Of a stretch of 64,000 nt of DNA, positions 5,705 through 62,576 are shown piece after piece; within the stretch, counting starts at the first letter, position 1; each line of letters starts with the position of its first letter. The stretch lies in the NCBI GenBank assembly GCA_021292105.1, contig CM037871.1:52869261-52933260 (forward strand). Reading direction: 5' to 3'. Both the position numbers and the translations under genes were made by a program. The notes below the pieces were generated by a model that saw nothing but the letters and a program-made list of their open reading frames with translations, did no database searches and had not been told where the DNA came from. The stretch comes from Anadara kagoshimensis. Lineage: Eukaryota > Mollusca > Bivalvia > Arcoida > Arcidae.

Positions 5705-5739
<35 letters not shown>

Positions 5740-5779
5740 TATATATATATGAAAATGTATAGAACATTCTAGAATATAT

Positions 5780-5841
<62 letters not shown>

Positions 5842-26686: not shown

Positions 26687-26749
26687 ATGGGGGACAATCC
26701 ATCAAAGCAACAGCAGAAACGACAAGATGAACCAAAGCGGTTCGAACAG
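26687..26749 (+). CDS. Copy 2 exon 1 (start codon; one-base deletion)
   Basis: ATG at 26687, then a short polar peptide beginning MGDNPSKQQQKRQDEPKR. A 3' splice site (TTATTTGCAG, ending about 26632) lies upstream, so this may be a second exon carrying 5' leader. Copy 3 reads CGGTCTCG where this copy reads CGGTTCG, so one C is missing and exon 1 no longer joins exon 2 in frame. The donor is CAG|GTGATA. Start choice rests on the in-frame TGA just upstream and on conservation in copy 3. Confidence 0.65.
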
Positions 26750-29700
26750 GTGATATGTTGTATTATTATTTATAGATAGAGTACAGACATGTCGAAAATT
26801 TAACACAGAGCTAACGAAATAAGTCGAACTTTGGCTGCCGAGTGACTTAGCTATGGATTGTCAGTGACTTAAAAAACTGAAGACATATATATATATATAA
26901 GTAGCAGTTGTCGAGATATATGTAACGAAGGCTGGAAGTTAGCTGTCGATTCGGCACAAATAAGTTAGGGTATTGATAAACTTTCGACAGATCTATAAAT
27001 ATGGTATTAACTAAAATATTGAATGTAACACCAATCACAAACACAGTGATATCGCACGCCTAGGCTTTTCAAGGCTCTTAAAAAGTCTCTGTAATCCATT
27101 TTAGACCACTTGGCACCGAACCCCCGGGACTCTATATATTTAAGTAACTGGCCCATCTCCGGGACTAAGAAGAGACGGATACAATGTATTAAACAGTCTT
27201 ATTTAATTCTTGAGCACCCAGCCTCAAGTTTAAGTATTTTACTTACTTTACCAGTTTTTACTTTGCTTTTGGATTGTGGTTTGGGCATGGATTGGTATGT
27301 TTTTATATATATATTTTTTTTCAGTTGTATATTTCTTTCTACTTCTTTAAACGTATACTAGGAAAAAATGGGAAGAAATTTCAAAGCCTGGAAGGGAGCA
27401 TCCCACTCCCAAAGTACCTTTGTATACGAGTACATGGTTATGTTACACTTTCACCAATACTTTCTACAACGGAGGCAAGGATTAAGGGGTTCAATTTTTT
27501 ATTAGCCCACGTCAGAGAGGTTAAAAGCTCGTTACTAGAAAAAGCGTTCGCACCAAACCTAAAAACGGGACCTTAAAACCTGCCCACTTAAACGTTGCCC
27601 ATTCACAGAGGATACTTACTTCTAGTCACTGTAGACGACTTATTAAATGCCCAAGAAAGGCACAATCTATATTATATGATATAAGTATCACATTACAACT
27701 GGTACAATTAAAACGTTCTTATCTCTTACTTTATTACAGGTTCATCAACCAATGTTAGATACCAGACTCCTACTTCAAACATTAATGTCACAAGTCAAGT
27801 TCCTTCCACAGAGACCGTGAGGAGTGAAAGGCTACGCAGGTTTGAAAATGGAAGGGAGGAGCAAAATTTATCAAACAGCCAGGTTTTACCACAAATGGCA
27901 ACTGATGAGGGAAATCCGAGATTATCAAGGCGTGAAATGGAAAGATTGAGCAAATCAACATCCAACATTCCAAATGTAATAGAATTCGACAATGTGAGGG
28001 GTAAATCTTTGTCAAATGTACCTACAGGTCGATCACGCCAGGAAAGCAAATCATTGTCAAATGTACCCCCAGGTAATCCTTTAGACATATCTTACAAGTT
28101 TTGTTAAACATGAATAATTTAATTTCTAAATTCTGTTATATCACGTTGCAATACAAACACAATGCACGCGCTCGTTTTTCATGTAATAACAAACATGGCA
28201 ATGCCGTGCCAATCAGCTGGGTTCAGGGGTCAGAATATGGATCATTCATCTCACATGTACGTGACAGTTTCATTTGTACTGTGTCATTTTAGTTTTTTAA
28301 AGTTCGGTTTTCTTCACAGTGGAATTAATCAAGAAAGATTAAAATAGAATATGAAAACAATTGCCACAACGTTTTTTAATGTTTTGTTTACATTGGTGAT
28401 CGCGAACAATCAAAACAACATTGATCAACATGCAAATGTCCGTTATCGGCGATTTTAACTTGGGGATGTGGAAACAATATTCAATCTGAAGGAATATGAC
28501 ATGCAATATCTTTTAACCATCAACTTTCAAGCTTTTTCAAGATGAGTTTGGTTCGGTTGAAGTGTTACCACAGATGGTCACTACCACCATCGGTGCCGGC
28601 ATTCAAAGCACTTGGAGGCCCTCAACATGTACATGTCCCTACTCCGGCAGACACGAGCGTCAAAATTTAGGAAACTGACCATTATTGATATTGATTTCGT
28701 GTTTTCTGGATATATATCAAAATCTCATTTTTACAACTGCACTTTTCATTTCGATCACAGATCACAATCTTTGATTCAACATTGTACTGCTGTGTATAAA
28801 CATGCACATGTTTCGTTTGACAATCGATTGACATCAGTGATTGAGGCGTGGCTTGTGTCTCAGCCTTTTTTTGATTGGTTGATGTTTGACAAGTTGCTGA
28901 CAGGTCTGACGCGGAAGAATTTGAATTTCCCTTTTAATATTTAGAAAAAATAGGCACGACTGCAACAAAATTTCATTTTATGTTTTTGTCTGAGTGTTGA
29001 AAATTAAATTATAAGGAATAACTTGTGTTTTTAACACGTGCATTATGAAATGTGCAGAACGTTTTTCATGTTATGACTCAATAAACTTGTTAAAAACACA
29101 AGTTATTTCTTAAATATTGTCACTCTCGCTTTATAATTCATATTGATTAAAACCAGTTTTATTTTAAGACTGCCTTTACATTTTGATTAAAACAGGCAAA
29201 GCAAATTTATATTAAATTAAAATGGTGGTAAACTAATTAAAAATATCAATTTAACACGATATTCGATAATATACTCTTTTTTATAAATATAGAAACGACA
29301 AACATTTTCAAAATGTGTAAAACTAATAATATTATTATTAGGTCAAATCGTTTCCTTAAATTCACCTGCGTTTTAACGAGAACAGTTTTAAGATGGGGAC
29401 GCTTTTGTGGAAAGTGGGAGCGAATTAGGCGAGAGCTATTTTACCTTTGGCGATTTGACTTGAATTCAATATTTTTATTTATATAAATAGTCTTCTTTCC
29501 ATGTGATATGTCATGTTTTATCACGACTTGCTCCACAGCGTCTTGTCATGATAAAGTCATGGGAAACAATACTCTGCTCGGATACAAATCTTCCAAATAC
29601 TTAAGATATAATTGATTACATCTTATAACAGCACTAGAAAGAAGTTTCGAATTGCAAATCCTCATCAGTTCAGTGGTGCACTTGGACCGAAAATGTGAAA

Positions 29701-30287
29701 TTAAAATGTTTTCAAGGGGTTGAAAAAATATACGAAGTACCAAAATATATTGAACCAAATTTAGGAATATTTTGTCAATACTTTTTATGAGGGAGTATAC
29801 CTTAGTTTTTGTAAGCGAAATGTATTTTATTAATTGCTACATTAATGTCACTTAACTTGCAACTCAAGTTCAAAGTACACAGAATATTCATATACAAGAC
29901 AACCACGTTAATGTTTCAGCAGTTGAGAGTAGAAAACCCTCTGTCAGTAGAGAAATGACACCAGAACCAAACCGACATTCCAAAGGAATAAGTGAGAAGA
30001 AATCGACCAGTGACGTATTTAATAACAACATTGTACGTGAATTCAGAGAAGCTATGAAACAGGTTAGTACAAAATGGTCGAAAGAGAAAACAGATAAAGA
30101 AAGCTTCAACCTCAACCAGTTATTTTGCTGGTTTTACTTTTAATGTTTTGGCCTTTAATATTTCAATCAGGCCATTGTTTACACGCATGCACGTCTTATA
30201 GAAACAAATGGTTCAATTTTTTATCACACAAATGTGTTCAGAATGAATTATAACAAAACGTCTAATACCGGTAAGTACATTTTACAA

Positions 30288-30322
<35 letters not shown>

Positions 30323-31703
30323 ATGATCTACTGACTCCTGAAATATATAAACATCACCATTAACTAACCGCATTATTGAATGGAAGTTACAAATGTCCCA
30401 CGTGTTAGCCCCAATTGATTGTACAGGATATTTACACGAAGTTTCATTAGGTCCGTATGCCTTTCAATCTCAAGTTTGATTACTAACGTGACAGGTGTAG
30501 TTAGAAGGAGTTGCTTACCCTTCCGAAGCACCCGGTCTCATTTCCATGGCTGAAGGTTTGTAATTTGAGAGTTGTAAGTTGTAACTTTTTTACTTTGCTT
30601 TTGGAATTGGGATTTGAACATGAATCAGCTTTTTGGGGTTGATATCGCATAATGTTTGCCCGTATATTATACAACAGTTTTTTGGAATTTGTGATGTAAT
30701 TGCAATCACGTGGTATGATCGTCGATCCGATAATTTCATCACACAATAAGTTGTTCTCTTTGTACTAGTAAATTGTATATTATTTGTATCCCTTGCAGTT
30801 TCAGAAGTTATCCCGTGAAGTTGATGAAATGCAAGAGACAAACAATGACATATTAAGAAAATTGAACAGCAGAGAACGGTATGTATAATCTTTATATCTT
30901 GATGTTATAACTTTATATAGATTATATAAATGTTTCTTCTGTGATATTTACTTTTTTACTGCCGAAGATAAAAACATTGAATATTATTAACTTAAATCGT
31001 AGAGTGGAAGTACCACTAGCTATGATTGAACAGAATACATGCTAAAATACTTCGACGATTATTGTTAACAATACCACAGGTACTTGTAGAGGACAGGTTC
31101 GTGTATTATTTATTGTTAATAATGGCATTCTAATGGTTTTTTGCATTATTTCACAATGCTACCGTCAACATGTTTACAACAATTACTGCAAATCCGACAT
31201 TAAAAAAGAATACACCCTCCTACGATACATTTGTCTTTTATAATATCTCGTAGGAGGGTGTGTTTTTAAATGTCGTATTTTCAGTAATTCTTGGATATAT
31301 TTCGGCGGTAGCATTGTGAAATAACGCTAAAACATTAAAATAATATTATTCTTAATAAATACATGTAATACAAGAACCTGTCAACAAGTACCTGTAAACA
31401 ATAAAACCTATACTGCCACGAATCATTCAGTGACAAAGACGGAAACGATCATTATTTATCCACGGTGTCAAATATCGCTATATTTTCTTTTTGTGAACTA
31501 ATTCCCTGACATTTTCTTCTTTAGACAAACAGGCTCAGACCAAGAGACTGCAATGTTGTCACGAATTGAAGGTAAGGGATTACGATTGTGCTAGTGTGTG
31601 TGTGTGTGTGTGTGTGTGTTTGTGTGTGTGATTTTGTTTATCAGTTTATAAGAAAAAACATCAAAGTAATTTTGAAACACATTTAGGCAGGTCAGGGTGT
31701 GAT

Positions 31704-31768
<65 letters not shown>

Positions 31769-34700
31769 TTAATATAATAGTTCTTTTATATTATTGTCTG
31801 TAACACAAACTTCTCCATTTTGTGAATCATATAACCATCGGGGGTACAAAGTATACATCAAGATTTTTATATTTTTTCTGCTTTTTTTGAGGAAAACTCA
31901 GAAACTTTTAAACTTTTTAAAGGGAGATTATTTTGATTAACAATATTATTTATATGTTTAACAGATTCACTGGAACGTTTAAAGTGTTTGGATGACAGAA
32001 GCCAAGACAAAGACGACCAGGTTGAAGTTTTATCTGTAACCATAGAAACGTTATCTCAAACTGTTGATAAACTTTGTAATAGTCTAATAGAAAGACAGAA
32101 TGTTGAGCAAGATTCAACGGTACAGGATATTTCTGAAGACAGCGAGGACATGGTTAATACTGATTCCGAAAAAACAGATATAACCGAAGACATAGACGTG
32201 TATGAAATGGATATTGTTCCAGAAGAGGAGATTGTAACCCGTGAGGAAATAGACAACATTGAAACGACTAAAGCAACTAGACAGGAACAAAATGTACCGA
32301 ATGTGACCAGTTCTTCAGAAAACACTGACATCCAAAGACAGACGAGAGTGGAGGGAAACTATAGAGATAATGACGGGCCAAGAAACAGAGACAAACATTC
32401 AACGGCGGCACGCCATTCAACTAACATTGAAAATATCCCAAGAATTAAGGTTACACGGAATGACTTAGGATTCAAGCGAAAGTTAACAGAACAAGTAGAT
32501 GACAACAGAGTTTACTGTCTTGAAAACAGAATAGAAGAAACAAGAAGTACGCCGTTACAAATGTCTAATATACCGGTATCACAAGATATAACAACAGACC
32601 AAACAGAAAGACAAACAGAAACAACAGAAGACGATCTATTTAGAGGGTTAGGTTTAGACCTGGATGGAACCGATCGGCAGACAAGCGAACTGTTGGAAAG
32701 ATTTGCCACAATGAGGTTACGGTCTGCTTTTTATGTACCTAATGTATTTATAAAAATACCAGTCTAAAAGTTTCAAGTTAAAAATCGAATATGCATCATA
32801 TCTTTTAATTTATGCTATAGCAAAAATACATTTATGTATCCCGAATCCAGTCAAGCATTTGCAAAAAAAGCAATTTTCTCATAATTGATAGTAATTATAA
32901 TTTGATATAATTTACAAATATTTAACTTTAAAATAGAACATTAAGCTAGTTGATTACAAGTTACTTAAATAAACTAGAATTGACTTTGAGCTGAGTGTGT
33001 GATATACAATTTTATACTTTTCGGGTCAATCGGCAATAAAAGCACCAGACCTAAGAAAGGTTAAAACACCCTAGACGCGATGATTTCATTTACAGCATTT
33101 TTGAATAACATAGTGTAACAATGTTGTTTCAGTTTGAATATTTTTATATGTTCATTGTACTTCATTGTTTTTAGTTTTAAACTGAAACTAACAAAATTTG
33201 AATTCTAATTGTTTGTTTTTCACAATTTAAATGTTGTGTAAATATAAATTTCTTGTATTTCTAGCACAAAGAAGGGAAATGAGTACAGAAATCTAGTTGC
33301 CAACCCATCAGGTAAATTAAAACCGGACTAAAAACGTGCACTTTGCCAATGCAAACAAACCGAGATACAATAACGGATGTGGTGGTGAAAATACTATCGT
33401 ATTTCTTTCCGTCATTATTTATGACACTTTTCATAATATATACCTTTCATAAGATTGTGATTTGTGATTAGTATTTATTTCATTTAACACTTGGTGGGTG
33501 TAGCTAGCTAAACAGGAGATACTTACCCTTCCATCGCGCATCCCTCGTTAAAGTTCACATGTTTCAATTCATTTGCCACTTTCAAAGTTTTTACTTTGGG
33601 TTTGGACTGTGATGTTTGTTTTTGATCATTAGACAAATTAAGGGTAAGAATATGCTAATCGTACAACATCTGGTGATGGATGTTGATTCACATTATGTCA
33701 TTGATATAGTGTTGGATCCTTGCTTTATATTATCTTTGTATTTAATTGTCAACATCACGGGTGGAATGCTGATGCCAGTTGGTTTTGTGAAAAATGTGAG
33801 ATAAAGGCGTAAACATCAAACATTCAAATTGAATTTAAAAGTCAATAATGGCAATATTTCAATCATTTTAGGCCTTGGTCGAGAAGTTATAGACGAAAGC
33901 CTGTGGGCAGACTGGGCACAAGAAGAAGTTGATCGAGGTAAAATATGTGGCTCGGCGTATTAAACTTGTCAATACTTGCAATAATTACTTATAAATAGAA
34001 AAACCTCGGGATATCCAGAATATCTATATTGTTCAATGGATTCGGTCTGGACCACTTTCCTGGTAAAAGTTCGTGTGTTGAATCTAACTTGTCAGTTTCA
34101 AAGTTTGCTTCTGGATTGTGATTTGGACATGGATTATGTTTGTTTGTTTTTTTAATAAAACAGCATTAGACGAATTTCTATAAGAAGCATTTGTATATCA
34201 CAATGCTTCCTGTGATTTGTGTTTTAGTTCCACAAAAATCATTGTGATTAAAAGAAAGTAGTACTTGTTGATAAATAGGAAAGACAAACTTTTAACTATA
34301 GTAGAAAAGCTAGCACTTCTCTAAAAATTTATGACTTTATTTGATTTTAGACGTAATGCTTAATATCTAAAACTATTGAGAAACCCATGAATTTATGCAC
34401 CTTAAAATTTCTCAAAGCACTTATGATATTAGACCTGATACAAAATTCTAAATATTCTGATACAAAATTCTAACAAATCATCAAATATCTACTAGCAAAG
34501 CTATATATCCTAAAATGCTCAATCTTAGTTAATATTATGTTTAAGCTAAAGCTTCACCAATACCACCGACGGACGGCCCTAAAACAGTACTGTGCCTAGA
34601 TATTTCAGCAAGCATGAAAGGAGCACCGTTCAAGCAAATGAAAGCACTAGCCATAAAGTTTGTAAATGGTAAATATTCTATTATCATGAGAGACTATTAA

Positions 34701-37162
34701 TGTACAGATCAGTTATGGGCGGACATGGCCGAGTGGTTGTGGGTGCGATCTTAATTCGGGACTTTGAAATTTTATGAAATCAATTTAGTTCCTATCCATA
34801 CTAGAGCATAAGGTATATTCATTCGGATATAAATGAAAACCGAGGTTCTTGTCTCATACACGCTAAAGAAACTTATGTAGAGTTCGAGAAAGAGCAGACC
34901 CCTGTACTGTGGTCGCTAATAGGTGCTTACCACTGAAACCGACCGAGCGAAATAAGAAAGTTATGAACCTGTTTAATTTAGATTGTTTAGTATTGTTTAT
35001 TATTCGCTAGTTAATAAAACATACCTTTCTTATGATATTGAACATTAAAGGAAGCAAACTTCAGTTCAAGATTCTATATTTTGTTGGCTTCTTGTTGTTT
35101 TGTAAAGGCAACTGTTACTGAATAAAAATACTGTGTCTGAACCTTTTTTAATATCATGGTTTTAAAAAAGGATTTCAATATTTTCACATTAGATACTCAT
35201 CACACTAAATTATCAGAAAAATGTAGCTAATTTTCCTTTTGCAATGGGCTAGATACTTTGCACCAGTCTGCAAAATATCCGATTCTTGTAGATTTCAATA
35301 ACAAAGAAATAAAACTGTATTGTGCGTTACAGTATTCACAGATAAAACAACCATTTATTTTGTGTTATATGTTTCGATTTTAGAAATGGAAAGTATTACT
35401 GAAATGGGAGTTTCTGAAAACATTTCACTTGTTACAGTTGGTCATGAAACTCGTGTTGTAAAGCATATGTGTATGGATTATAAAGCTATTATATCATGTA
35501 TAGGTATGTGTATTGTTAATGATATTCATAGGTATGAATTAAGAAAACACCAATTAAAAGGAATGGTTACCTTGCCATATTATAATGACAAAAGAAAATG
35601 GTATTGGACACCTGTAAACAAACCTTAAGCCTGTGATGGGGTGTGCAATTCCACTTTCTTTTATCATTACAGTTTGGTCTAATAATTTGTGATGTAACTG
35701 CTAATAACAACTCCTTTTATAGAATAAAAAGGTGGGGTTGTTGGGTATGAATTTTATTTAATTTAAGGTGAAATTGAAAATTTTACGCAGTGGGCAAAGT
35801 TTTTGAATGAGATTTTGAGCAGAGACTGGTATTGTACATTTGGTCACTTCCTAATAAATTTAAAATGATGCCACTAAAACTTGCAAAGTTTTGTAAAATG
35901 TCACAATCTTTGATAACGAGGTTTAATGATAATGAATATGGTTTAGCGTATATGATTGTCTGTTGTTTGAAATCTTTTATCATGGCTACAAAAATGCAAA
36001 TTATAGGGTGTTTTGTACCAGTATTCATATAGTTCTGGACCAGCATTATTTAGATCCGTTTTATCTCCATACAAAAACAGACATATACGATGTTGTTAAC
36101 AATATTATAATTGGCTAATCTATAACGCTGGCAACAGATAACTACATATAAACAAACAAGCCATTATATGGTTAAATATATTACTTTTTGCAGAAAAACT
36201 TTGTCCAGATGGACCCACTCCACTTGGAGGGGGGCTTTTGATGGCCTTAGCTGGTGCATTGGGAAAAGGTAATTTATATCAGATTTATGACTGAGTCATG
36301 GCTATTTTTGTTATTGATAATAACACGATTTGTATGATAATACGTGCATTAATAACACTGAATACACATCATACCTATGTTAGTTTTTAAACACTAAATA
36401 GTCGTTGTGGAATACAATTCCACATCAGTAGTGCTTGAAGCAAAATTGTATAACCAAAATTTGTTCAAAGGGTTGAAAAATATCCAAAGAACAAAAATAT
36501 ATTGAATCAAATTAAGCTAAGGAAATACTTTGCATTAGGGAGTATACCTTAGTTTTTGAGGATTTCGAGATTTTTCATAGAAGCAAATTTAGTCAATTGT
36601 ATATAAATTAAAATATAGATGTTTAAATTACATTTAATAGGAAATATGCACAATGAAATTACTATTGCATTTTAATTATTGGATTTTATCACATACCCGT
36701 TGAGTCTTACTATAGCGATACATTACATTTTTTTCCATGTGATACAAAGGTCCGTATCGCACATGTGCAATACAATATTCCGTATCACCACAGTAGCCGA
36801 AACTACTTTTAGGGGATTTTCCATTTCCGACAACAATAATATGACGTCATTCATTGGTTATAATTAGAAACCGAACATTGGCAGATTAAACCAGAGAGCT
36901 TTTCATTTAGTTTGGTAGGGTATTTGATAAATACAAAATCACACATATGTGGTTTTATGACGTAAATGATCGCACTCGTTTATTGTGCGGACGTAAACAT
37001 TACACTCGTGCGCAGAGCGCACTTGTGTAATATATCCGTCCGCACAATAAACTCGTGCGATCAGCTACGTCATAAAACCACATATGTGTGGTTTTGCGTG
37101 TTTATTTGTAGTACTTTAATGATCAATATGTTTTATCTTTTGAAAATGTATAGAACATTCTA

Positions 37163-37197
<35 letters not shown>

Positions 37198-40100
37198 AAT
37201 TTATTTGTATAGCATTGATGATTTTGGTATTTAGATTGGCATTTATTAATTGATAACTTTAATTTTATTTTGTAACATTGATCATTGGTTAGGATGTCTT
37301 ACTACATTTGTCGATGTTACTGTATCCCCAAGAATAATTTTGATAACGGATGGAAAAGCAACACCGGATGGAGTTTTAGATGGTCCTGATGAATCACCCT
37401 CACCATTGTTTAATTTTCAGGTAATTATTCATAGTACGTTCAGCTTTCCTTGTGTCCTCCTGTTCAAAAACGTATTAGACGTCATTACAACGTTGTTGAT
37501 AGGTACCATACATATCAAACGATATGATGATTCTATATCCAATGTTGTCGTGGATATAATTGACGACAGTTATAATTAATTCATAGTTAATTCAGTGCCC
37601 CTTTTACTATCATTTTTAAATTTACATGGCGGGTGTAGCTACCTAAACGGGAGTGTCTTGCCCCTCGGTAACACTTGGGCTCCATTCCTTGTTACAATTT
37701 AATCTGTTTAACTATATTTGTTAGTCTTCAATCTTCTTATATTGCTGTTTGGATTGTGATTTGAACATGACAACTTTTTTGGTATGTTTTTCTTTGATAA
37801 ATCTATTGTTAATCTTTATTTTCTTCTATCCCTATTCATTCAATTTTATTACGATGCCTAAGGTCGGTAATTTACCATGCGGTATAAAAGCGAAACTGAA
37901 AATATTTTACATAGTTCTTTAGCGAAAACGAAATAACATGAAGATATATATTTAGCGATTTTTACGTTCTCTGGAGCCTGGTAAACAACGTAATGTGTCT
38001 TTTATATTTTGAAACTATGCTGTTAAATTTTCGTTTTATTGTGTTTTAACAAAAGAACCCATGGAAGAAATTCCAATGTTGAATATCCAAACGACACAGA
38101 ATGACACAGCTTGCATGAGTGATTGATTGTATGGCCTTCATTCATTAATACCGCTTAAGTGTTACATTACCAGTCCTTGTTATGTTTAACAGGTACAGTT
38201 GAAACTTAATGCAGTATCTAGTGATCTTGGGAGAAGAGGAAACCGAGTATTTTGTATACCAGTGGGAGATGCAAACCTTGTAAGTCCTTTATTTTTGTGT
38301 ATGAAAAAATAGAACCACATTCCGAAGAATTTCTACAAAACCATACACCACCTATTATAACAGTGATATTGTTTGTTATATATTTGTGGCATTTACGAAT
38401 CAATAAGAAACCAGCCTAACTTACTTCCGATTGAGATTCACCTATTTTTCGATGTAATTGGTCTCTAGTATGATGCAATAAGACCAACAGTGTTCAAGTG
38501 TCATTAGCACAGAACTAAATACGTCAGAGTCCTTTACATTGACCCACTGCTAAGCAATCTTCACGATTTTTTCAATTTTGTAATAGGATGAAGTCTCTAG
38601 GAGCTAGGCCAGGCGAATAAACCGTTTCGCTTTATAATATTCATTACAACGTTGACAGTGTTGAATGTCGCCCGTTGTTCTGTTGCTGCAAAACACTTTC
38701 AGAGAATTTACATCGATGATTTTAACGTATTGCGGTTCTCAGCTGATCTAACACGTTTGCATATTACACTTTAGACATTGTATTTCTCTTGGTTAAAAAA
38801 TCCATCATACCAACACCTTTTGCGTCCAAATAAAATGTGGCATTCATCTTGCCAGCAAATGCTTACGTTTTAATCTCTTTGTCCTCGGAGACTCAAGCCC
38901 TTCTCCTTAATGGGTTTGAGTTTTATATTAGACACAAATTAAAATATTTTTTTACCTAAAACGCTTCCACAAGCATACTGAAACTCTGGTTGGCATTTGC
39001 TCATCGCTAAAAAATTTAGGAACCCAGCAGGTGTCTAGCTTTCGCATACCTGAACGATCATATGATTGGTAAAACGATTCCATATAAAATGCCTAATGTC
39101 TGCTCCTTTTTTGCCGGAACCACTACGGTAGCTCAGTGATATAGCCTTGAATAGTATTGGGAGGACATGGGTTCAATCCCCGGCGAGTATGACTCAAGAC
39201 TTGAAAGTGGTGACTGTTCTTTTGCCAAGCACTCGGCATTACGAAATGAAATTCACTGTTCTTTTGAATAGGATCTTAAAATAAACGAGGGCCTGTGTCA
39301 CGATAGGCTTGGCATGCTAAAGAACCCTGCTGTATTATACAATTAGTGCAATGCAGTTTCGCCAATGTCTGGCGACGACTTGATACAAAGGAAATAATCT
39401 TGACTGGAACGTCAAACACTATTACTCAACTCACTTACTCATTCTTTTGGCAACTTTCCAGAAATTGATAATTTGTTTTTTCAGTATTGTTTTTGTTATT
39501 TTATTATGAGTTAGTTGATAACAGACTAGAATTCAGCAAATTTAGACAGGATCAGATATATTGCAATAAAATTTTGAAAATCTTATTTTACACCATTTTC
39601 ATTTATATTATTGATTTTCAAGATAATCAGTATTTCAGAAATACGTTTAGCATAGTAGTCGATAGTAAAAACTATTGACGTCAGTATGTTTGGCATAAAA
39701 ATTAAACGATGAATCCCGAGGTGTAAGCGTGTTATGTTTCAATATTGCACGCAAACTTTGTTCAAGTCCGAGGTTTCTCAACGCATTTTTTTTATACTGC
39801 ACCCTTTGTCACGTGACACTGTCGTTTTTGACGTCACACGATTGTTGCTGTCATATTGTACTAGTTCTTATATCCATTTACAAGAACCAATGCATTATTT
39901 AAGCTTTATGGGACAAAATTGTATTTTTTAGATGAACTACCTAAAGTGGGAAGTAAACCAAATGTATTTTGATATATTATAAAATGGTTATTGAACTGAT
40001 GCTGTGAAATATTGTCCCTCGTTGAGTCAAAATTTGCACTAGTAGCTCGTGCATATGTCGAATCAACGCGGGACAATATTTCACAACATCAGTTTAATAA

Positions 40101-43100
40101 CCCTATAGTATTACAAATAGTATACATTGAACGGCATATTTGTCTTTTATTTAAGGCAAACATAAAAATAATAACATCTGAAAGTGGCGGTCGAATAGTT
40201 CCTCCAGAAAAACTGAATTATCTTATTCGAATGCACATGAATTTTGTAAGTATTGTTTTAGCTTTCAGTTTGACACTTAAGTGAGTTCACAAAAATTTAA
40301 ATATAACATTCTCTCAAAATATTAAACTACATTTAAGCTGGTGCTTAACAGTGTTTGGTCTGGTAAAAAATAAAGCTTTCAGTTCACCTGAATCTTGTGT
40401 AAACTGCACTACTAAACTACTGTCCCAAATCAGATGATATTTAGCAGTGCTAATGTGAGGGTCTTAAAAATTTGCACAAATGAAGGGGTTATGCCCCCTT
40501 GGCGCCCCATAAAAGGGAAAATTGTGAAAATCTTAAGATACATTTCTCTGAAGTGATAATGTTTCATGTAAAACATACTTAATGCACCTAGTTTCAGATT
40601 TGCACAAATCGTCTCTGTACTGGTCAAAATGATGACATGGCAAAGAACTAAAGGGGGAATTGTTAGTATTTAGGAAACTATAAATTTTTGTATAAGCATG
40701 TATATTACAATATTGTAGGTAATGGCATAAAGATCATTTTGATATGAAGGTCATGGGTTCAAAGGTTAAGGTCACAGATACAACCGGATACTGAAATGAT
40801 TATTTATCTCGAAAGTTATACGCGTTTTCCATACGCATGTATATTAGAATAGTGTAGGATTGTAATCGATGTTGAAATATTGCAGGCCCTCGCAATGCAG
40901 ATGAAAATGCAGATAAAAGACACAACGATTGACGAAGCGACAATGAAAATCGCTGTAAGAACAGCTTTTTCAAGTTTACCCGAGGATGATATAGTAAGTG
41001 CTTTTGAATGATAAAACTTTGTCATGCTGAGTGTCCATCGATGTTTGACATGGTACATAGGGTCGTGTCACCTGCTTTAACCTGTATGACGTTTTTATGA
41101 CACTTAAACTCTGCATCAGTACTAGATTGATATTTTGAAATTCGACTTAAGACACTCCATTGAAGGGTGGAATATATATACAATTAGTTATTTGTAGCTA
41201 TATGATTTTAAAACTGAAGGTATACAGATTTACAGGAAAAACATAGCTTTTTTTTACCATAGACTGTGCTTTCGAATATAATATTCAGTCAATCTTTAAC
41301 TATATTTTTTCAGGATTTTGTTTTCAAACTGGAAAAATCATGGCTGTAATTTTCCTATGTAAATTAAAACAAAGTATTAATAGTATGCACAATATATATA
41401 TTTTACATACGTAGTATATTATGTTATATGCCTGACATTAGTAATTGAGTTTTTCTTTAGGAGGCGATATTAGAGTTTGTGAAAAAACCAGAAATACTTG
41501 CATTTAATGTAGCCGACATTTTGAAAGAAAAAATACATAAAGAAATACGTGGATCTAATTTGCCAAACATAGGTACACGAGTGAAACGTGGACCCGATTG
41601 GAGATGGCAAGACCAAGACTCTGGTGGACCTGGGACGGTTATTGGACACCAACAAGAAGGTATACAGTCCACTTCAGTTTATTAATGTCAAATTTTTAAA
41701 ACAACTATCATAGAACATCCTACAGTACATCAACTATCTAATGAACTTAAATTGTATTGAAATTTTAAGAACAAAAAACCATCCAAAAAACCAACAAACA
41801 TGTCAATATGTGTCAAAACCAAAATCCTAAAGTAAGGTAAAAACTTTGAAGCTGGCAATTAAGGTTATACATGTGAACTTTCGACAGGGAAATGAGGCTA
41901 TGTCGTATGGAAGGGTAAGCACCTTCTGTCACATGTAATTAAAATTAGGAAAGCAAGGAACACGGAACCATGCAATACTTTGTATCTACATACACAAAAA
42001 TTAAATATGCAACACTTTGCTAAAAGTTGCATGTTAACTTTTTCATCCATACTGTCGATATTTAATATACCTATATATTTGTATTTGTTTCCTTAAATTT
42101 CTCTCTACTTGTATTATAAGGTTGGGTGTTTGTTGAATGGGATGGAAATAACGGACACAATGCATATAGATATGGTCACAACAATGAATATGATTTAACG
42201 GTTATTGATAAACCAAGGTCACTGGGACCAGACGAATTAATAGCAACCGGATGTGCTGTCAGACGCGGTAAGTATATTATATAATAATTAAACAAAAACA
42301 TACCAAATCCATGTCTGAATTACATCCAATCTCAAAGCAAAGTAAACTGACAAAATAAATAAAGTAAACATGTGAGCTTCCATCAGAAAAGTGAGGTTGG
42401 CTACTCCGGAAGGGTAAGCTCTTCCTGTTAAGATAGCTACACACGAAATAAATGTTATAAATTGTGAATATTATTTTCGTTTACGGATGGGTATAAAAGT
42501 TGTACCTCAAATATATAGAGAATCGTGTAATTTTGAATTTTTTGAAGAAGGTGAATAAATCTCATAATGCAACGAAGCTTGTCTGTAATCTTATACTACA
42601 CTTGTTTAATAAAACCTAAAGTGTGAACGCTAATGAAGGTTAAGTTATACTGTATCTAGGAAAACTAACTCTTGATCTCTCTTATTATTATAAAATATAG
42701 TTTTCATTATTTATTGCCTTATTTACCTGACAAATCTTTTGATGGATAATAAGTATTGCAGGGTACGACCAAATCACTTTGATACCTGCTCTGCTTATCA
42801 TTCAATTAAGAAGTTATCTAAGAATAATTAAAATTATTATTTATTGATTATTTAATTAATTTATTTATTCACTTATTTGCATTTATATATCTTTTGGAAA
42901 TCTGTTTTTATATAATTTAAAACTCATGAAAACTGATATTGTTCTAGGTCCTGACTGGAAGTGGGATAATCAGGATGGTGGTGATGGGACCATAGGTTAC
43001 GTCTTAAGGTTGAAGCGAACGGATGGATTTTGGTAAAAAAATAACTAACATTTTCTTAATTTTATCAGTCTATTTGTTCAATGTTTCAAATAATTTTTCA

Positions 43101-46100
43101 GTTTAAAAATGCATATTTATGAGAATTTATGTTTTGTTTTTGATATTCAAAGTGGCGCCATATAATGACAAAAATAAAATGCATTGTAAAATTGCTATAA
43201 TGCTTATACTATTTAAATACAAGAATTCACATTTATGCACATATGTCAAGTTGGCCGTTATGTAAATCGTTGTTTATCCTATAACAACTAAAAAAAACAA
43301 ATATACCAACAAATAGTCCAAATCACAATCCCAAAGCAAAGGAAAGACTTTGAAACGGGCAAATACAGTTAAATACGTAAACCTCCACTAGGGTAAACTT
43401 AATTGGTCATTTTAAGCAACGAAATCGATTTCTATTGTTTCACATCAATATAAACCTTTATTATTTCTTAAATTGTCATTTACTCCTACACACTTTCTTT
43501 AACATTGTCATTTTTAACAACCGATATATTCCAACGAGTCGTTCGTTTATTGCTGATTTTAATAAAGGAAACAAAATTTAAATAACTTCAAACAAAAAAC
43601 AAACATACAAATTTATCTAATCGCAAAGCAAAGTAAAAACTTTTGACAAGCTGGCAAATTAAGTCATATATAATATAATGGTCTTCTCTTTCATCAAATC
43701 TTTATAATTTCTGTATTCTAAAGGTTCGGTGGCCAAATGGCCAAATGCGTAACTATCGTTTTGGAGCAGAAGATAGCTTTGATCTCATTATATGGTAAGT
43801 CTACGTACAATTCATTTTATTACCTACAAAAATATGTATGATTTATATTTTACTATGAATATACCAATAAATAGGTGTATATTCTGTTTTTTCGACATTT
43901 TTATAATTGTAATGCGATTATTGACGAAATTAACTTTATTTGAAATACTTACAACCTTTATTTTTAAACTTATAAACTTGTATAAATGTATATAAAATCA
44001 TCATTTAAAAACAAACTAGTCCATGTCCGAATCACAATTTAGAAACAACAGAAGCAAAGTAATAACTTTGCAACTGGCAAGTTAGGTAGAACTTCCAGTA
44101 GAGAAGTGGGACAGAGTAGTCAAGGATTAAGATATTTCATGAATTTGTCGTGTACGGTGATTTAATTTGATTTAATTTCGTCTTCATCCCTAATATGCAC
44201 ATTAAAACATAACATTGGACTATACTGTATATATAATTATATTTTAACACTATCCAGTGTTGTGAAATTTTTATGTCTATGATCCCATAGACATAATTTT
44301 TTTAAAGGATGCCAAAACTACTTTTTATATTTCTCCGATGATGTCATTGTCGTATTGTTTACATGACGTCATATTGTGCAGAAAATATTCATGCAAGGTT
44401 AGCTACCGGCGGTTGCTATTGGCAATCAGCTGTATTCTTCTTTTAGACTAATGCGCTGGTTTTTGTTTCATGTGTATAATTTTATAAAAGATTACATGAA
44501 TGTTATGAATATTGAACTTAGTTTTGAGTTTAATTATAAGGAATGATTGTAATTTGGTTTTGTCTATGGGGTCATATTTTTGGAAATTAAATTATTTTTA
44601 CAGTGATGAAAATGATTTGAAAGACTTCAGTTCAAAGCAATCAACATCACAGACAACACCTGCTACAAGTTCTGGTTCCAGAAAAAGACAAGATAGATCT
44701 CATATTGATGAAGACACTGGAGCTGCAGCGTCTGGACCATCTCATAGGGAAAGTGTACAAAAAGAAAGGAAAACGAGGAAAGATGGAACAATCCTCTCAT
44801 CTGCATCGACAACAGGTACATCAACGGCTACAAGAAAAGCTAGTGTCACTACCAAAACAACACCTGTGCCAACGAATACAAAGAGTCTTGATACAACCAT
44901 CTCTACCAAAAGCAGAGGACATCCATGCAGTCCAAGTGAGGCCGTATCGAAAAAGGAAAGGAATAGAAAGGACGAAATTATTATAATAAGAGCAGATGAT
45001 AAACGCGGACACAGCGATAAAGGAAATGAATCGAAACCTTTGACGCTTGCAAATAAACAGGGTATGATGGCATGTTTTCTTAAATTTCTTAAAACTTACG
45101 TTTACCATACATTCGTGTTTTATTCTCTGTATTCTGAAACAGAAAAGAATACAAAATACAATAGAATGGTGACCTCATGTTCCGGTTGTTGCCACGAAGA
45201 TATTTGGGTATTTTGGGTATGCAAAGATAAAAACGGTTATTTGTCATTGTTTGAATTTTCCGAATGTTGCGTGCTGAGTGTTAGCACTAGGAGTTATTTT
45301 GAATTCCATATTCTTTAGGTTTATCCTATTCACATTAACTCATCATTTGCATTATATGCCTGTATGATCAATAATCTTGATCAATATAACCTCTTTAATA
45401 CTTTCCAAGTCATCTATATCATGTTTGAAGATATATTTGCATACATAGTGGATATGTACTTTATATACATCGTTCACTTCAGGAATAAATCAATGTCTAA
45501 TTTTCTATTGTTAACTTTCCATTTCTATGCAGCAATATACATGCTTCTCTTGCTTATGTTTCCATTTCACTAATAATTATATTAGAGCTTGTTCCATACG
45601 GGGACTTTGTACCATGGAGCAAACTGCTAACAAATAAATTGCTGACGCAAAGATATTGTAAGTCTATGCTTTTCAAGGCCCTCAAAAAGATTAAATGGCC
45701 ATAATATTGCTCATAAGGTGTTTCAATACCAATATTACCTTGGATATATTTGACGTCTAATAGTTCCATGTTACTTTCATTCTTAATTTTGAATACACAA
45801 AGGCTTAGCTAGGAGCCTACCCTTTCGAAGCACCCAGCCACACTTTTCTGTTGCACGTGCATGTGTGTTCATTTGTTAGCAAAACTACTTTGCTTCGTGA
45901 TTTTGATGAACAAAATACTATTTGCATGTTTTGACAGTGATCACGCCTAAATCGACTGAAATAAAGCCAGATATCTCAATAGCTTTTTGGAGTTATCAAA
46001 AAGATAATAAGGAGTGGGAGCCTTACCCAGAAGGAATTAGCGAGAAAATAGAAACAGCTTTCTCAAGGAAACCAACCGGAACAACCGTGATACAGCTAAA

Positions 46101-48155
46101 TAACATTACGTAATTACATTTTATACTATATCATTAAGGCTGCATATTTCATTTTAGTTGTACGAGTTACGACGGCTATAAATTTATAAATAGCATTCAT
46201 AAGAGTTCGCGAATGGAATTACATATAACGAGTCATAATATTAATTACAGAGTGATAGATTGGCATTTGCTCATATCTAAATGGTCCACTTAATATATAT
46301 TTTCCAAAAGTCCTTTAGGATTCTTATTCATTGACAAAAGTATTTATTAATGTATCACGTGATCAATACCTTGTAACGATAATGCGCATCAATTACATCC
46401 AAAATCCCAAAATTTTCATTTTCAGTTCGTGTCTATATAAATATGAACGTTATTGAATAAACGTGTGTTTCATCATTGTAACTCCTTTAGGTCTTTAGAA
46501 TGAGCTTTGAAAATGCATTTAAGAAATTGTTATGGAAGTACGAAGTTTTGATATAGTAATTGCATTTATGTTTCGATTTCTGCTCTGTGAAATAAATTTA
46601 CAACTACTGGATGTTGCTAATGTCTGACTGCTGGTTTATACTTCATTCGCTCTAACCTATATTTCTGATTTGCTACGAAGATGAACTTTTTTTGCAGATG
46701 AAATGCATGTATATTTTATGTATTCACATAAAAATTCACATAAAATATAAAACAAACAAACCGGTCTATGTTCAAATTCTTTTTTTCATTTTTTTTTTCA
46801 GTTTTCGAATTCATTTCCCGAGGATGATTCAGGTTGACATAACCACAAAAGTGGCACGACCAATACGACGGACAGGTATAGTAATATTATACTTAATAAA
46901 AAAAATATATCAAATAGTTCTCATTATATAGAAATCAACAAAATGAACAAGATTAAAATATTAAAACATTAACGATTGATTGGATCAGGATTATCGCCCC
47001 AGTAAAGAATATTTTAATTACATCGAGACGTCACCAGCTACATGTGAATTGTCTTAGATAATGACCTTTGCAGGTCAATGTGCAGGGAGGGTTCTTGTAC
47101 GTCATCTATATATCTGTATGTTGTGTTGAATGATTTGGCGACAGTCTTCTCTGGATTTAACAAGGTTTTGCATGTATTCTGCTTCGTAAGAAAAAAGAAA
47201 CAAATCAGCAAGTAATGGTGCACAGTTTGTACCCATTGGTATACCGATTGTTTGCTGAAAAAATATATTACCAAACACAACAAATATGTTATTTATCAAA
47301 AACTCCAACATTTTGATGATAGTATCTTCAGTATATTTTTCTTTGGAATCCGTATGGTGCTTGACAAAATAACCAGAATCCCTGTTCAGCACCAGATATT
47401 TGTATCTTGGTTTACCGTTTTTGTAAAAGAAAGACAAGTGAATAATTTCTTTAAGGCGTTCTTTCAATTTAGAATGAGGGATAGTGGTGTATAGTGTAGA
47501 AAGATAAAATGTTTAAATACTTTTTACATGAGATTAAGTATAAGAAGAAAGATGTTCAAGTAATTCTTTAGAATTTTTGAGAATCCACATTTGGTTGATT
47601 CCAGATGTAGAATATAAAAACTGATGACAAAAATCACTTGTTTGAACTGCCACCAGATAATTGGCCTTGGTATAGTAAAATTATATTTGTAATAAATGAT
47701 AAATAAAGTACAAAGGGTTAGTATAAATATTTGTGTTCATCCAGTTTCTTTGTTTCATTCGCATATTTAAGAGCTCCAAAGACTATTTTATCGGGTAGTC
47801 AAATCCATTTTTCTTAAGATATGATGAGTAGTTCATAGAATTATTATCCTAGCTGATAGTGGTATTTTTGGTAGAGTTAAATTAGTCTTACAGAAATATA
47901 CCAGTCCCTTTCAAAAGACATACAATCTAAAGTTAAAGTCTTAAAAAATGACAGTTTAAGTTAATCAAGAAGAGCCTCATGCCTCATTTCCTGGTGAAAG
48001 GTAAATGTTTTTATCTTTGTAAGGTTGTGATTTGGACAAAACAATTGTTTTTGGTGCTCTCAATCACACATGAAAATATTGAATTTTATTAAGTGATGTA
48101 TACTAGTTATAATTTTTTATTTGACATTATTTGTGTCATTTCAGAAAACGCCTGA
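26687..48155 (+). CDS. vWA-MIB/HERC2-WWE gene, copy 2 (complete, 23 exons)
   Basis: Exons: 26687-26749, 27740-28072, 29920-30062, 30799-30878, 31525-31571, 31965-32715, 33265-33311, 33872-33937, 34546-34668, 35384-35503, 36194-36268, 37293-37420, 38193-38279, 40156-40245, 40886-40993, 41461-41659, 42121-42267, 42948-43032, 43724-43794, 44604-45061, 45938-46109, 46802-46875, 48145-48155. Summed length after allowing for two one-base lesions is 3,480 nt, about 1,159 residues. Layout: polar N-terminus, coiled coil, acidic region, vWA domain, two MIB/HERC2 domains, basic Ser/Thr linker, WWE. An in-frame TGA lies 9 nt before the ATG in copies 2 and 3, which supports that start. Lesions: exon 1 lacks a C near 26741 relative to copy 3, and exon 18 lacks a T at 43004-43005 relative to copy 1. 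No signal peptide or membrane segment is seen, so the protein is probably intracellular. The domains are known from ubiquitin and ADP-ribose signalling; the combined role is unknown. Confidence 0.85.
26784..26999. mobile_element. MITE-like element, same family, intron 1 of gene copy 2
   Basis: Left end CAGACATGTCGAAAATTTAA, right end AAACTTTCGACAGATCTAT. Internal TTGTCGAGATATATGTAACG matches the family member at 21310-21516. It begins about 35 bp after the exon 1 donor. Confidence 0.58.
27075..27315 (+). repeat. Family X repeat, intron 1 of gene copy 2
   Basis: TTTTTACTTTGCTTTTGGAT and TGTGGTTTGGGCATGGATTG are close to the family consensus; tail of T and TA. Unit 2 counterpart about 58140-58395, where the tail is a longer TA tract. 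Confidence 0.55.
27740..28072 (+). CDS. Copy 2 exon 2 (polar disordered region with 15-residue expansion)
   Basis: Acceptor TTATTACAG, donor CCCCAG|GTAATCC, phase 1 to 1. Encodes about 111 residues rich in Ser, Arg, Asn and Glu with no recognisable domain. The 3' end carries two related units (KSLSNVPTG and, after RSRQES, KSLSNVPPG); copy 3 has only one. The extra 45 nt are 28028-28072, in frame. Several substitutions from copy 3 change the amino acid. Confidence 0.72.
28101..29010. other. Intron 2 of gene copy 2, unexplained sequence with higher GC patches
   Basis: Includes a 110-codon open frame at 28612-28944 that is cut by a TAG in unit 2 (59639-59878) and shows no domain, so I do not call a gene. 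The remainder is unique sequence. Confidence 0.5.
29015..29113. repeat. Hairpin repeat in intron 2 of gene copy 2
   Basis: Arms AATAACTTGTGTTTTTAACA and TGTTAAAAACACAAGTTATT, 20 bp, perfect, flanking about 55 bp. Confidence 0.7.
29628..29682 (-). ncRNA. Degenerate hammerhead motif and Penelope-type terminal fragment
   Basis: Minus strand has CTGATGA (29668-29662), a fully paired helix II (GGATT/AATTC with one G-U), and GAAA (29648-29645), but the cleavage triplet is TTC in place of GTC and helix I is interrupted by inserted bases. The flanking sequence (CTTGGACCGAAAAT, then GGGTTGAAAAA) is shared with the intact motif at 17316-17366 and the fossil at 36392. In unit 2 the core between TTAAGAT and TTCAGTGG is deleted (about 60640). 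Confidence 0.55.
29920..31571 (+). CDS. Copy 2 exons 3-5 (start of coiled coil)
   Basis: Exons 29920-30062, 30799-30878 and 31525-31571 with phases 1-0, 0-2 and 2-1. Exon 3 ends VREFREAMKQ and exon 4 continues FQKLSREVDEMQETNND, a heptad-like pattern of Leu, Val and Met with charged flanks, typical of a coiled coil. Exon 5 is short (RQTGSDQETAMLSRIE) and joins exon 6, DSLERLKCLDDRSQ. These fit an oligomerisation segment. Introns here hold a dispersed repeat at 30485-30645 and a fold-back element at 31065-31405. Confidence 0.75.
30290..30319. repeat. Poly-A tract in intron 3 of gene copy 2
   Basis: About 29 A's after TTTTACAAAT; unit 2 has only AAAATAAAAT here (61258-61268). Confidence 0.85.
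30485..30645 (+). repeat. Family X repeat, intron 3 of gene copy 2
   Basis: GACAGGTGTAGTTAGAAGGA, TTGCTTACCCTTCCGAAGCA, TTTACTTTGCTTTTGGAATT, GGGATTTGAACATGAATC. The most complete + copy. Unit 2 counterpart about 61435-61590. Confidence 0.6.
31065..31405. mobile_element. Fold-back element of about 330 bp, intron 4 of gene copy 2
   Basis: Ends ACAGGTACTTGTAGAGGACA and TGTCAACAAGTACCTGT are inverted. Inner pairs include CACAATGCTACCG with CGGTAGCATTGTG and ACACCCTCCTACGA with TCGTAGGAGGGTGT. The apex is near 31235. No coding capacity. Long hairpin MITE. Confidence 0.72.
31592..31766. repeat. TG and TA microsatellites in intron 5 of gene copy 2
   Basis: TG tract 31592-31630, then after about 70 bp TA tract 31702-31766. 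In unit 2 the TG tract is longer (62525-62576) and the TA tract shorter (62648-62664). Confidence 0.9.
31965..32715 (+). CDS. Copy 2 exon 6 (coiled coil then acidic Glu/Asp/Thr-rich region)
   Basis: Largest exon, 751 nt, acceptor TTTAACAG, donor ATGAG|GTTACG, phase 1 to 2. The first 45 or so residues continue the coiled coil (VEVLSVTIETLSQTVDKLC). The next 110 are strongly acidic (for example DMVNTDSEKTDITEDID), then mixed polar with no domain I recognise, ending LLERFATM. A frame opening at TTG 31988 and running to 32767 is this exon read past its donor; TTG is not the start. Copies 1 and 3 encode an identical exon 6 and differ from copy 2 at a few residues. Confidence 0.85.
33265..33937 (+). 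CDS. Copy 2 exons 7-8 (linker to vWA domain)
   Basis: Exons 33265-33311 and 33872-33937. Exon 7 encodes a short basic and polar piece (KGNEYRNLVANPS). Exon 8 encodes a GLGREVIDESLWADWAQEEV segment that is conserved in copy 1 with Asp/Glu exchanges. The latter probably forms a helix leading into the vWA fold. Between them lies a copy of the dispersed intronic repeat (about 33490-33625). Confidence 0.72.
34546..40245 (+). CDS. Copy 2 exons 9-14: von Willebrand factor A domain
   Basis: Exons 34546-34668, 35384-35503, 36194-36268, 37293-37420, 38193-38279, 40156-40245. The MIDAS metal site is complete: DISASMKG (DxSxS) in exon 9, the conserved Thr in GPTPLGGGL in exon 11, and the Asp of IILITDGKATPDG in exon 12. 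Exons 10 and 13 supply the expected strands (ENISLVTVGHETRVV and NRVFCIPVGDANL). In the family such domains bind protein ligands through a Mg2+ ion. The protein is almost unchanged from copy 1 across the six exons; only exon 10 has a few replacements. The exon 14 acceptor is TTTAAG here and TTTCAG in copy 1. Confidence 0.88.
36392..36442 (-). ncRNA. Fossil hammerhead motif inside unit 2-specific insertion
   Basis: Minus strand retains AGCACTA and TTAGTGTT helix I arms and a perfect GGAAT/ATTCC helix II, but the core reads CTGATGT in place of CTGATGA and ACAA in place of GAAA. It is expected to be inactive. It is the left part of a roughly 750-bp insertion absent from unit 1. Confidence 0.5.
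36935..37095. repeat. 161-bp near-perfect palindrome
   Basis: Centre GTGCGC-AGA-GCGCAC at 37015. Arms extend 80 bp each way: left AAAATCACACATATGTGG through TTTATTGTGCGGACG, right CGTCCGCACAATAAA through CCACATATGTGTGGTTTT. Only a few mismatches. No coding frame is seen. Fold-back (MITE-like) element or its terminal part. Confidence 0.8.
39119..39435 (+). mobile_element. tRNA-derived SINE, intron 13 of copy 2
   Basis: Counterpart of 7801-8116, nearly identical. Confidence 0.77.
39985..40104. repeat. Fold-back element of about 120 bp, unit 2 intron 13
   Basis: Counterpart of 8664-8785, with slight change at the left end (AAAATGGTTATTG). Confidence 0.7.
40886..41659 (+). CDS. Copy 2 exons 15-16 (helical spacer and start of first MIB/HERC2 domain)
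   Basis: Exons 40886-40993 and 41461-41659. Exon 15 encodes a Met/Lys-rich helix-like stretch (ALAMQMKMQIKDTTIDEA). Exon 16 continues with a helical segment (EAILEFVKKPEILAFNVADI) and then enters the MIB/HERC2 fold at GTRVKRGPDWRWQDQDSGG. The first part resembles a helical bundle after the vWA domain but I cannot name it. Confidence 0.8.
41575..43794 (+). CDS. Copy 2: two MIB/HERC2 domains (3' exon 16 to exon 19; exon 18 frameshifted)
   Basis: First domain: GTRVKRGPDWRWQDQDSGG in exon 16, then GWVFVEWDGNNGHNAYRYG and EYDLTVID in exon 17 (42121-42267). Second: GCAVRRGPDWKWDNQDGG in exon 18 (42948-43032), then VRWPNGQMRNYRFGAEDSFD in exon 19 (43724-43794). These match the MIB/HERC2 pattern of RGxDWxWxDQDGG, xxWDNG, YRxG and YDL. 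In Mind bomb ligases this SH3-like module binds Notch ligands. Exon 18 is 85 nt here and 86 in copy 1: one T is missing at 43004-43005 (GTCTTAAGG against GTCTTTAAGG), so the literal frame fails from there. The copy 1 form, VFKVEANGWIL, fits the domain and is clearly ancestral. Confidence 0.87.
44274..44577. mobile_element. MITE-like element with ATGATCCCATAGAC terminal repeats, unit 2
   Basis: Counterpart of 13015-13281, about 40 bp longer, with an extra AATCAGCTGTATTCTTC segment. One CRE-like site is kept (CATGACGTCAT); the other has drifted (GATGATGTCATTG). Right end abuts the exon 20 acceptor. Confidence 0.6.
44604..45061 (+). CDS. Copy 2 exon 20 (Ser/Thr/Lys-rich linker)
   Basis: 458 nt, acceptor TTTTTACAG, donor CAGG|GTATGA, phase 2 to 1. 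Low complexity: many Ser, Thr, Lys and Arg residues (for example TTKTTPVPTNTKSLDTTIS), ending KPLTLANKQ. Probably disordered and a possible phosphorylation or nuclear-targeting region, by composition only. It differs from copy 1 at many positions, nearly all changing the residue. A longer open frame here (44512-45318) is this exon plus flanking intron. Confidence 0.82.
45938..46875 (+). CDS. Copy 2 exons 21-22: WWE domain
   Basis: Exons 45938-46109 and 46802-46875. The first Trp motif is IAFWSYQKDNKEWEPYPEG, followed by KIETAFSRKPTG and VIQLNNIT. Exon 22 completes the fold with FRIHFPRMIQVDITTKVARP and IRRT. This is the canonical WWE layout: Trp, Trp, Glu, then (Y/F)xIDFxxMxQ and an Arg pair. 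In RNF146 and PARP family members this module binds iso-ADP-ribose; in Deltex it binds ankyrin repeats. The pair of exons is almost unchanged in copy 1. Confidence 0.9.
46990..47042 (-). mobile_element. SINE tail fragment beside the RT relic, unit 2
   Basis: Counterpart of 15680-15732. Confidence 0.58.
47090..47650 (-). pseudogene. Reverse-transcriptase relic, probably Penelope-like, unit 2
   Basis: Same relic as at 15780-16340, at the equivalent place in copy 2. Open frame 47467-47102 with GIPMGTNCAPLLADLF; TTYRYIDDV in the adjoining frame. Nearly identical to unit 1, including the breaks, so the insertion predates the duplication or was homogenised after it. Confidence 0.72.
48145..48155 (+). 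CDS. Copy 2 putative terminal exon 23 (ENA-stop)
   Basis: Acceptor TGTGTCATTTCAG follows a good pyrimidine tract. The phase-1 G of exon 22 plus AA gives Glu, then Asn, Ala, TGA. It is conserved in copy 1 at 16834-16844. I see no AATAAA within several hundred bases downstream, and it lies between the retroelement RT relic and the hammerhead motif, so it may be exonised element sequence. The alternative is read-through past the exon 22 donor to a TAG at 46929-46931, which adds 18 residues. Confidence 0.45.

Positions 48156-62522: not shown

Positions 62523-62576
<54 letters not shown>

Follow-up and report, generated by a model that had tools for sequence, protein, structure and literature searches.

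The window analysed here (64,000 nucleotides, C15:52869261-52933260, from a 1.115-Gb genome in 36 contigs) raises the question of what a protein would do that combines a coiled coil, a vWA domain, two MIB/HERC2 modules and a WWE domain, and in which no catalytic domain is seen. Both MIB/HERC2 and WWE domains have mostly been described in enzymes of ubiquitin and ADP-ribose signalling. Joined to a vWA in a conserved family in which no catalytic domain was found, they would naturally link the two systems as an adaptor, and such a family would test whether reading can work in trans. We asked whether the gene is real, which parts of it are constrained, and which reading of its function the sequence favours.

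A gene of 22 exons in a tandem array

The gene model was built from open segments and splice sites; all copies of the locus were compared and the phase gaps were then filled. The gene under study is the third copy of an array (copy 3). It has 22 exons (Table 1), and its ATG and the end of its stop codon lie exactly at the two ends, 26687 and 48155, of the region given in the original prediction. All 21 modelled introns are GT-AG in all five copies, which is a consistency check and not independent proof, as the boundaries were chosen by us. Exons 4, 5, 7, 8, 13, 14 and 18 complete the phases beside the exons that carry motifs. A second acceptor, at 34552, was discarded since its AG is absent in copy 5. 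We also noted an upstream reading frame of 18 codons (26674-26730) that overlaps the presumed start codon at 26687.

Table 1. Exons of copy 3 and the parts of the neighbouring copies inside the window (window positions)
Feature	Position	Strand	Content
Exon 1	26687..26749	+	start codon, basic N-terminus; frame broken by the lack of 1 base that the four other copies have
Exon 2	27740..28072	+	N-terminal region, phase 1 to 1
Exon 3	29920..30062	+	coiled-coil region begins, phase 1 to 0; weak acceptor
Exon 4	30799..30878	+	coiled coil, phase 0 to 2
Exon 5	31525..31571	+	coiled coil, phase 2 to 1
Exon 6	31965..32715	+	second coiled-coil stretch, then acidic region, probably disordered
Exon 7	33265..33311	+	linker, phase 2 to 1
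Exon 8	33872..33937	+	linker, phase 1 to 1
Exon 9	34546..34668	+	vWA 1 (MIDAS DISAS)
Exon 10	35384..35503	+	vWA 2
Exon 11	36194..36268	+	vWA 3 (MIDAS TPLGG)
Exon 12	37293..37420	+	vWA 4 (MIDAS TDG)
Exon 13	38193..38279	+	vWA 5 (RVFCIPVGDAN strand)
Exon 14	40886..40993	+	vWA end, or linker behind the vWA
Exon 15	41461..41659	+	MIB/HERC2 no. 1, first half
Exon 16	42121..42267	+	MIB/HERC2 no. 1, second half
Exon 17	42948..43032	+	MIB/HERC2 no. 2, first half; frame broken by the lack of 1 base that the four other copies have
Exon 18	43724..43794	+	MIB/HERC2 no. 2, second half
Exon 19	44604..45061	+	Ser/Thr/Lys-rich linker
Exon 20	45938..46109	+	WWE first half
Exon 21	46802..46875	+	WWE second half
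Exon 22	48145..48155	+	last codons and stop
Copy 2	229..16844	+	exon 6 to stop; 5' exons left of the window
Copy 4	57740..63616	+	exons 1 to 6, remainder right of the window; frame open throughout

The tandem expansion that had been noticed in the window comprises five copies. Comparison of the window with itself and with its flanks placed them at C15:52.815-52.994 Mb, with starts 31 to 49 kb apart, and all 22 exons recur in unchanged order in each of them. The reading frame is uninterrupted over the full length of copy 4 (1,114 aa) and copy 5 (1,130 aa), and in these two the exons are phase-consistent, as had been claimed. For copy 3 itself the claim did not hold, because its frame is broken twice by 1-base deletions relative to all four other copies. 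In copies 1 and 2, small indels in vWA or MIB exons break the frames.

The copies are not equally distant. Between copies 2 and 4, identity is 98.6-99.6% in three long blocks, 95.0% in a fourth and 99.85% at the two window ends (10-1363 and 62648-64000), and the intron flanks of copy 3, which lies between them, are 5.2% different from those of copy 4. Either a recent block duplication or the placement of both haplotypes in tandem would explain the near-identity of copies 2 and 4, and the real number of copies may be smaller than five. Copies 1 and 4 are identical over the roughly 456 sites of exon 19, although 10.7% of sites differ in their intron flanks as a whole, which points to patchy gene conversion. 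The last introns of copy 3 (47102-47512) and copy 2 (15792-16202) hold, on the minus strand, a reverse-transcriptase-like fragment (RVT_1 0.061 in copy 3, below the cut-off).

Domains of the predicted protein

In the Pfam search, spliced copy 4 matched MIB_HERC2 (PF06701; 1e-31, in two stretches), WWE (3.2e-13; 50.3 bits against a curated cut-off of 21.1) and VWA_2 (3e-11). The Pfam VWA model reached 23.5 bits, just below its cut-off of 23.8, and four further listings were below theirs. The hand-joined exons of copy 3 gave VWA_2 at 1.5e-11, WWE at 8.3e-15 and MIB_HERC2 at 2.1e-23, the last in two stretches of which the second covers its module only as far as the frame break. The two MIB/HERC2 modules and the C-terminal WWE of the original prediction were thus recovered by profile search, and so was its vWA. 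The complete MIDAS was also located: DISAS(MKG) at 34599, TPLGG(G) at 36217 and TDG(KATPDG) at 37346, each in a separate exon. The DxSxS, T and D motifs are intact in all five copies, and metal binding is predicted.

In the N-terminal part, the heptad periodicity of residues 150-205 and 205-262 was reached by 44 and 14 of 2,000 shuffles, respectively. Residues 150-262 taken whole were matched by 938 of 2,000, and three other segments by 724 to 1,103 of 2,000. Since the two stretches are periodic separately but not as one, there would be a register break between them.

The vWA had been described as a metal-dependent adhesion fold, and this part of the original prediction was not upheld. Hydropathy alone indicated neither a signal peptide nor a membrane helix: the N-terminus is polar and the maximal 19-residue hydropathy, 1.52, lies within the vWA. 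We therefore rejected an adhesion or secreted protein. The vWA profile, when compared with solved structures, was nearest to the intracellular RPN10/PSMD4 (6e-6), followed by a bacterial fimbrial subunit (1.5e-4), collagen VI (1.8e-4), complement C2 (0.045) and von Willebrand factor (0.64). The profile has four rows, the nearness to RPN10 is a weak sequence score, and a search with the single sequence gave no significant vWA match among solved structures. A Cys/His-rich piece of the intron at 33.6-33.9 kb was tried as a zinc finger and discarded; it matched no Pfam family, with a query that was partly inaccurate against the window DNA, and the only match in the adjoining piece was a zinc knuckle below threshold (0.31).

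The gene looks real. Its predicted product has about 1,110-1,130 residues in the order coiled coil, vWA, MIB/HERC2, MIB/HERC2, Ser/Thr/Lys-rich linker and WWE, and a protein with such an architecture very probably exists.

Constraint and alternative readings

Exon divergence was lower than intron divergence, the latter counted in 150-base intron flanks, when copy 4 was compared with copy 1 (0.025 against 0.107; 83/3333 exon and 654/6118 intron sites), copy 3 (0.025 against 0.052; 84/3343 and 320/6141) and copy 5 (0.050 against 0.117; 168/3345 and 705/6020). For copy 2 (0.001 against 0.004; 4/3342 and 24/6275) the four exon changes are too few to tell. Third codon positions had changed most in the comparisons with copies 1, 3 and 5, the pair with copy 2 being the exception. 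Because exons diverge less than introns, third positions are favoured and two copies are fully open, we conclude that this is a coding gene, whose exons diverge at half the intron rate or less.

Between copies 4 and 5, pN/pS was 0.44 in the N-terminus, 0.93 in the vWA, 0.68 in exon 14, 0.59 in the MIB part, 0.56 in the linker and 0.42 in the WWE, which is among the parts that changed less between copies. We found no excess of amino-acid changes in the vWA and exon 14 over the rest in any of five copy pairs (Fisher p 0.43 for copies 4 and 5, and 0.09, 1.0, 0.35 and 0.37); the pair with 0.09 leans toward fewer such changes there. Exons with a broken frame (1 and 17 of copy 3, 15 and 16 of copy 1) were left out of this part-wise test. 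Positive selection on the vWA, which we had considered, is unsupported by these tests.

These values bear on the idea that the protein acts in innate immunity, for which the tandem expansion is the whole basis. It would then be an immune-type recognition protein of a lineage-specific tandem family, whose vWA or MIB binds invader or danger molecules and whose WWE links this to ADP-ribose signalling, a role that has been suggested for other expanded families of multi-domain proteins in marine invertebrates. The number of tandem copies, five, and the traces of recent exchange among them are in line with this, lineage-specific shuffled expansions, some with vWA or ubiquitin-system domains, are described for bivalves and other marine animals in the available text of PMC8195603, and the available text of PMC8853533 reports that the antiviral factor ZAP uses its WWE pocket for PAR. 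However, pN/pS is below 1 in every part compared between copies 4 and 5, the vWA and exon 14 carry no excess of amino-acid changes, the Pfam listing for spliced copy 4 contains no death-type domain, and HERC2 and WWE are absent from the main text of PMC8195603. We regard the immune role as unlikely.

Decay of the array, with all copies including copy 3 as pseudogenes from which no full protein is made, is a quite improbable explanation. The frame-breaking indels in copies 1, 2 and 3 would fit it, as would a further WWE-like exon with an internal stop that follows copy 5 at C15:52998369, but copies 4 and 5 are fully open and the exons are constrained relative to introns. The indels themselves were looked at in seven aligned blocks, where we counted the gap columns, in runs of one or two bases, that occur in a single copy. 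The remaining four copies vary at such a column in 18 of 30 cases for copy 1, 8 of 9 for copy 2, 7 of 11 for copy 3, 2 of 3 for copy 4 and 4 of 23 for copy 5, while variable columns make up 9-14% of all columns (13-14% for copies 1-3). Because the private gaps of copies 1-3 concentrate at sites that vary between copies, they suggest consensus error in which ambiguous letters were dropped. The two frame-breaking deletions of copy 3, however, do not sit at variable columns.

Alternatively, the protein could be a ubiquitin ligase, its catalytic domain being encoded in missed exons or added by alternative splicing. MIB/HERC2 pairs accompany RING fingers in Mind bombs (PMC5345843, available text), and our search for catalytic domains covered one spliced model and single-frame patterns. 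Nevertheless, the Pfam listing for spliced copy 4 contains no RING, HECT, ZZ, ankyrin, macro or ADP-ribosyltransferase domain, and no open frame of the window, on either strand, matched the RING, ZZ, B-box or HECT-signature pattern; a less strict half-finger pattern had two matches, on the minus strand. The absence of a RING in the original prediction agrees with this. Moreover, the stop codon after the WWE stands in identical sequence in all five copies, and we consider a hidden ligase very unlikely.

We then looked for relatives elsewhere in the genome. With the array included, at least 38 places matched MIB and at least 22 matched WWE, and two of those outside the array were examined. The locus at C14:7960219-7989448 has five vWA exons, four MIB exons and the first half of a WWE, ordered and on one strand. 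Its phases match those of the array at 20 of 20 exon ends (acceptor and donor of ten exons), and nine of these ten exons differ in length from their array counterparts by at most 3 bases, the WWE exon having 154 against 172. For one exon (7983364 to 7983507) the computed acceptor fell on an upstream repeat. Pfam matched VWA_2 (2e-14), MIB_HERC2 (2e-27) and the WWE half (2.4e-6). Identity to the array is 35% for the vWA and 49% for the MIB pair, both against copy 4, and 31% for the WWE half, against copy 5. A pattern search of 4.5 kb downstream did not find the second half of the WWE. The second locus, at C15:32.248-32.264 Mb on the minus strand, carries a vWA (2.7e-13), a single MIB (7.5e-11) and the beginning of another, with no convincing WWE match within 15 kb beyond it. 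In both loci the MIDAS T is replaced by S, and both keep the short linker between the MIBs that is seen in the array. In viral contigs we found no DNA match to the patterns used.

Because the unlinked and diverged C14 locus keeps both order and phases, the vWA-MIB-MIB-WWE order is, as judged from these predicted exons, not a local fusion, and exon phases common to separate, diverged loci suggest that the domain order has been kept for a long time. That two or more genes, a vWA gene and a MIB-WWE gene, had been wrongly joined is hardly credible: the intron between exons 13 and 14 measures 2.6 kb and the model is built from genomic sequence, but the phases run through the open copies, the exon order is kept in all five, and the unlinked C14 locus repeats them.

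Several features of these loci were seen in passing. The introns at C14:7974334-7983363 contain minisatellites whose unit seems to include the acceptor of a MIB exon together with its first codons (GWVTVEWDSH), and in those at C15:32.233-32.248 Mb the unit seems to hold the last codons of a MIB exon (VRRG), as if an exon edge had been amplified in each. A fragment similar to the reverse-transcriptase-like one of the array lies in the C15:32.25 Mb locus. Many of the MIB and WWE matches on C14, C2, C15 and C19 are paired on one contig, with equal or near-equal score and 0.9-2.2 Mb apart (for example C14:48.16 and 50.00 Mb, C14:17.48 and 19.50 Mb, C15:54.45 and 56.35 Mb), a pattern suggestive of haplotypes retained in the assembly or of large duplications in it.

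Proposed function and comparison with known systems

We favour, at a probability of about 40%, a catalysis-free adaptor that works inside the cell with an ADP-ribose-reading WWE and a partner-binding MIB pair and vWA. A non-catalytic scaffold, as originally predicted, fits the domains found, and the reading of ADP-ribose or ubiquitin signals is a role that we infer; the further idea that the vWA replaces a catalytic domain is conjectural. The protein would be cytosolic or nuclear, and its coiled coil would make it an oligomer. The MIB pair may bind a client peptide in the way that Mind bomb 1 binds part of the Notch ligands with its MIB-ZZ-MIB unit (available text of PMC5345843). The vWA, nearest to RPN10 and with its metal-site residues kept, might dock a further partner through the metal, and the C-terminal WWE would bind an ADP-ribose unit on a modified partner. 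Since no ligase or transferase domain was found, such an adaptor would act in trans and bring ADP-ribosylated clients to a ubiquitin or proteasome machine.

The WWE pocket was placed by eye along the WWE alignments (DTX1, Deltex, PARP11 and TRIP12); Q153 and R163 of RNF146 are presumably kept here and Y144 is presumably a phenylalanine. Because of this phenylalanine, ADP-ribose binding by the WWE may be weak or different. The pocket residues Y107, Y144, Q153 and R163 are named for RNF146 and ZAP in the available texts of PMC8853533 and PMC9367489 (R163 in both), and the latter reports that mutation of RNF146 Y144 to alanine prevented PAR-dependent recruitment. Against the adaptor also stand the ZZ finger that the Mind bomb 1 unit carries between its MIBs, which was not found here, and the broken frames in three of the five copies, copy 3 included.

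The fullest form of the proposal would be an undescribed animal gene family of three or more separate loci, encoding a catalysis-free reader (RPN10-like vWA, ZZ-less MIB pair, ADP-ribose-binding WWE) that is itself no ligase and delivers ADP-ribosylated proteins to the ubiquitin-proteasome system; taken as a whole, we hold it to be doubtful. The full-text literature searched, as far as its texts were available, contains no description of vWA, MIB/HERC2 and WWE in one protein, and the combination is absent from the available text of PMC2394772, PMC8195603, PMC5345843, PMC2964712 and PMC8853533; protein databases such as UniProt and NCBI may hold unnamed entries with it. The architecture fits a known pattern of domain shuffling, in which multi-domain families of shuffled composition are expanded in bivalves and other marine animals (PMC8195603, available text).

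Among known systems, the Mind bombs share the two MIB/HERC2 domains, and MIB1 was the best solved-structure match for the pair (3.6e-19 with the single sequence, 3.4e-22 with the profile). In Mind bombs a ZZ finger lies between the two MIBs, followed by Mind bomb repeats, ankyrins and RING fingers (PMC5345843, available text), whereas here the MIB linker is short, none of these parts was found, and a vWA and a WWE are added. HECTD1 and HERC2 also have a MIB/HERC2 domain (HECTD1 match 2.4e-11), but a HECT domain was found neither in the Pfam listing nor with the signature pattern. Deltex proteins consist of WWE domains, a RING and the Deltex C-terminal domain. Our protein resembles them and RNF146 in its WWE (DTX1 match 4.8e-5) and, as placed by eye, in the Q and R of the RNF146 pocket; it differs in its one C-terminal WWE, in the lack of a listed RING or Deltex C-terminal domain, and in the F at the Y144 position. 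The WWE-containing PARPs (PARP11, PARP13/ZAP) are likewise related through this domain (PARP11 match 0.022), but Pfam gave no ADP-ribosyltransferase domain or CCCH zinc finger here. RPN10/PSMD4, the best structure match of the family vWA profile, is a proteasome subunit with ubiquitin-interacting motifs, whereas here MIB and WWE follow the vWA. PARP4, the vault PARP, has a vWA in a protein of the ADP-ribose pathway (PMC2964712, available text) and matched the profile weakly (0.26), but no ART, BRCT or VIT domain is listed for our protein. Since a defining part of each class was looked for and not found, the predicted protein does not belong to the Mind bombs, HECT ligases, Deltex proteins or PARPs. 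Its mode of action may resemble that of the half of such ligases which reads the substrate.
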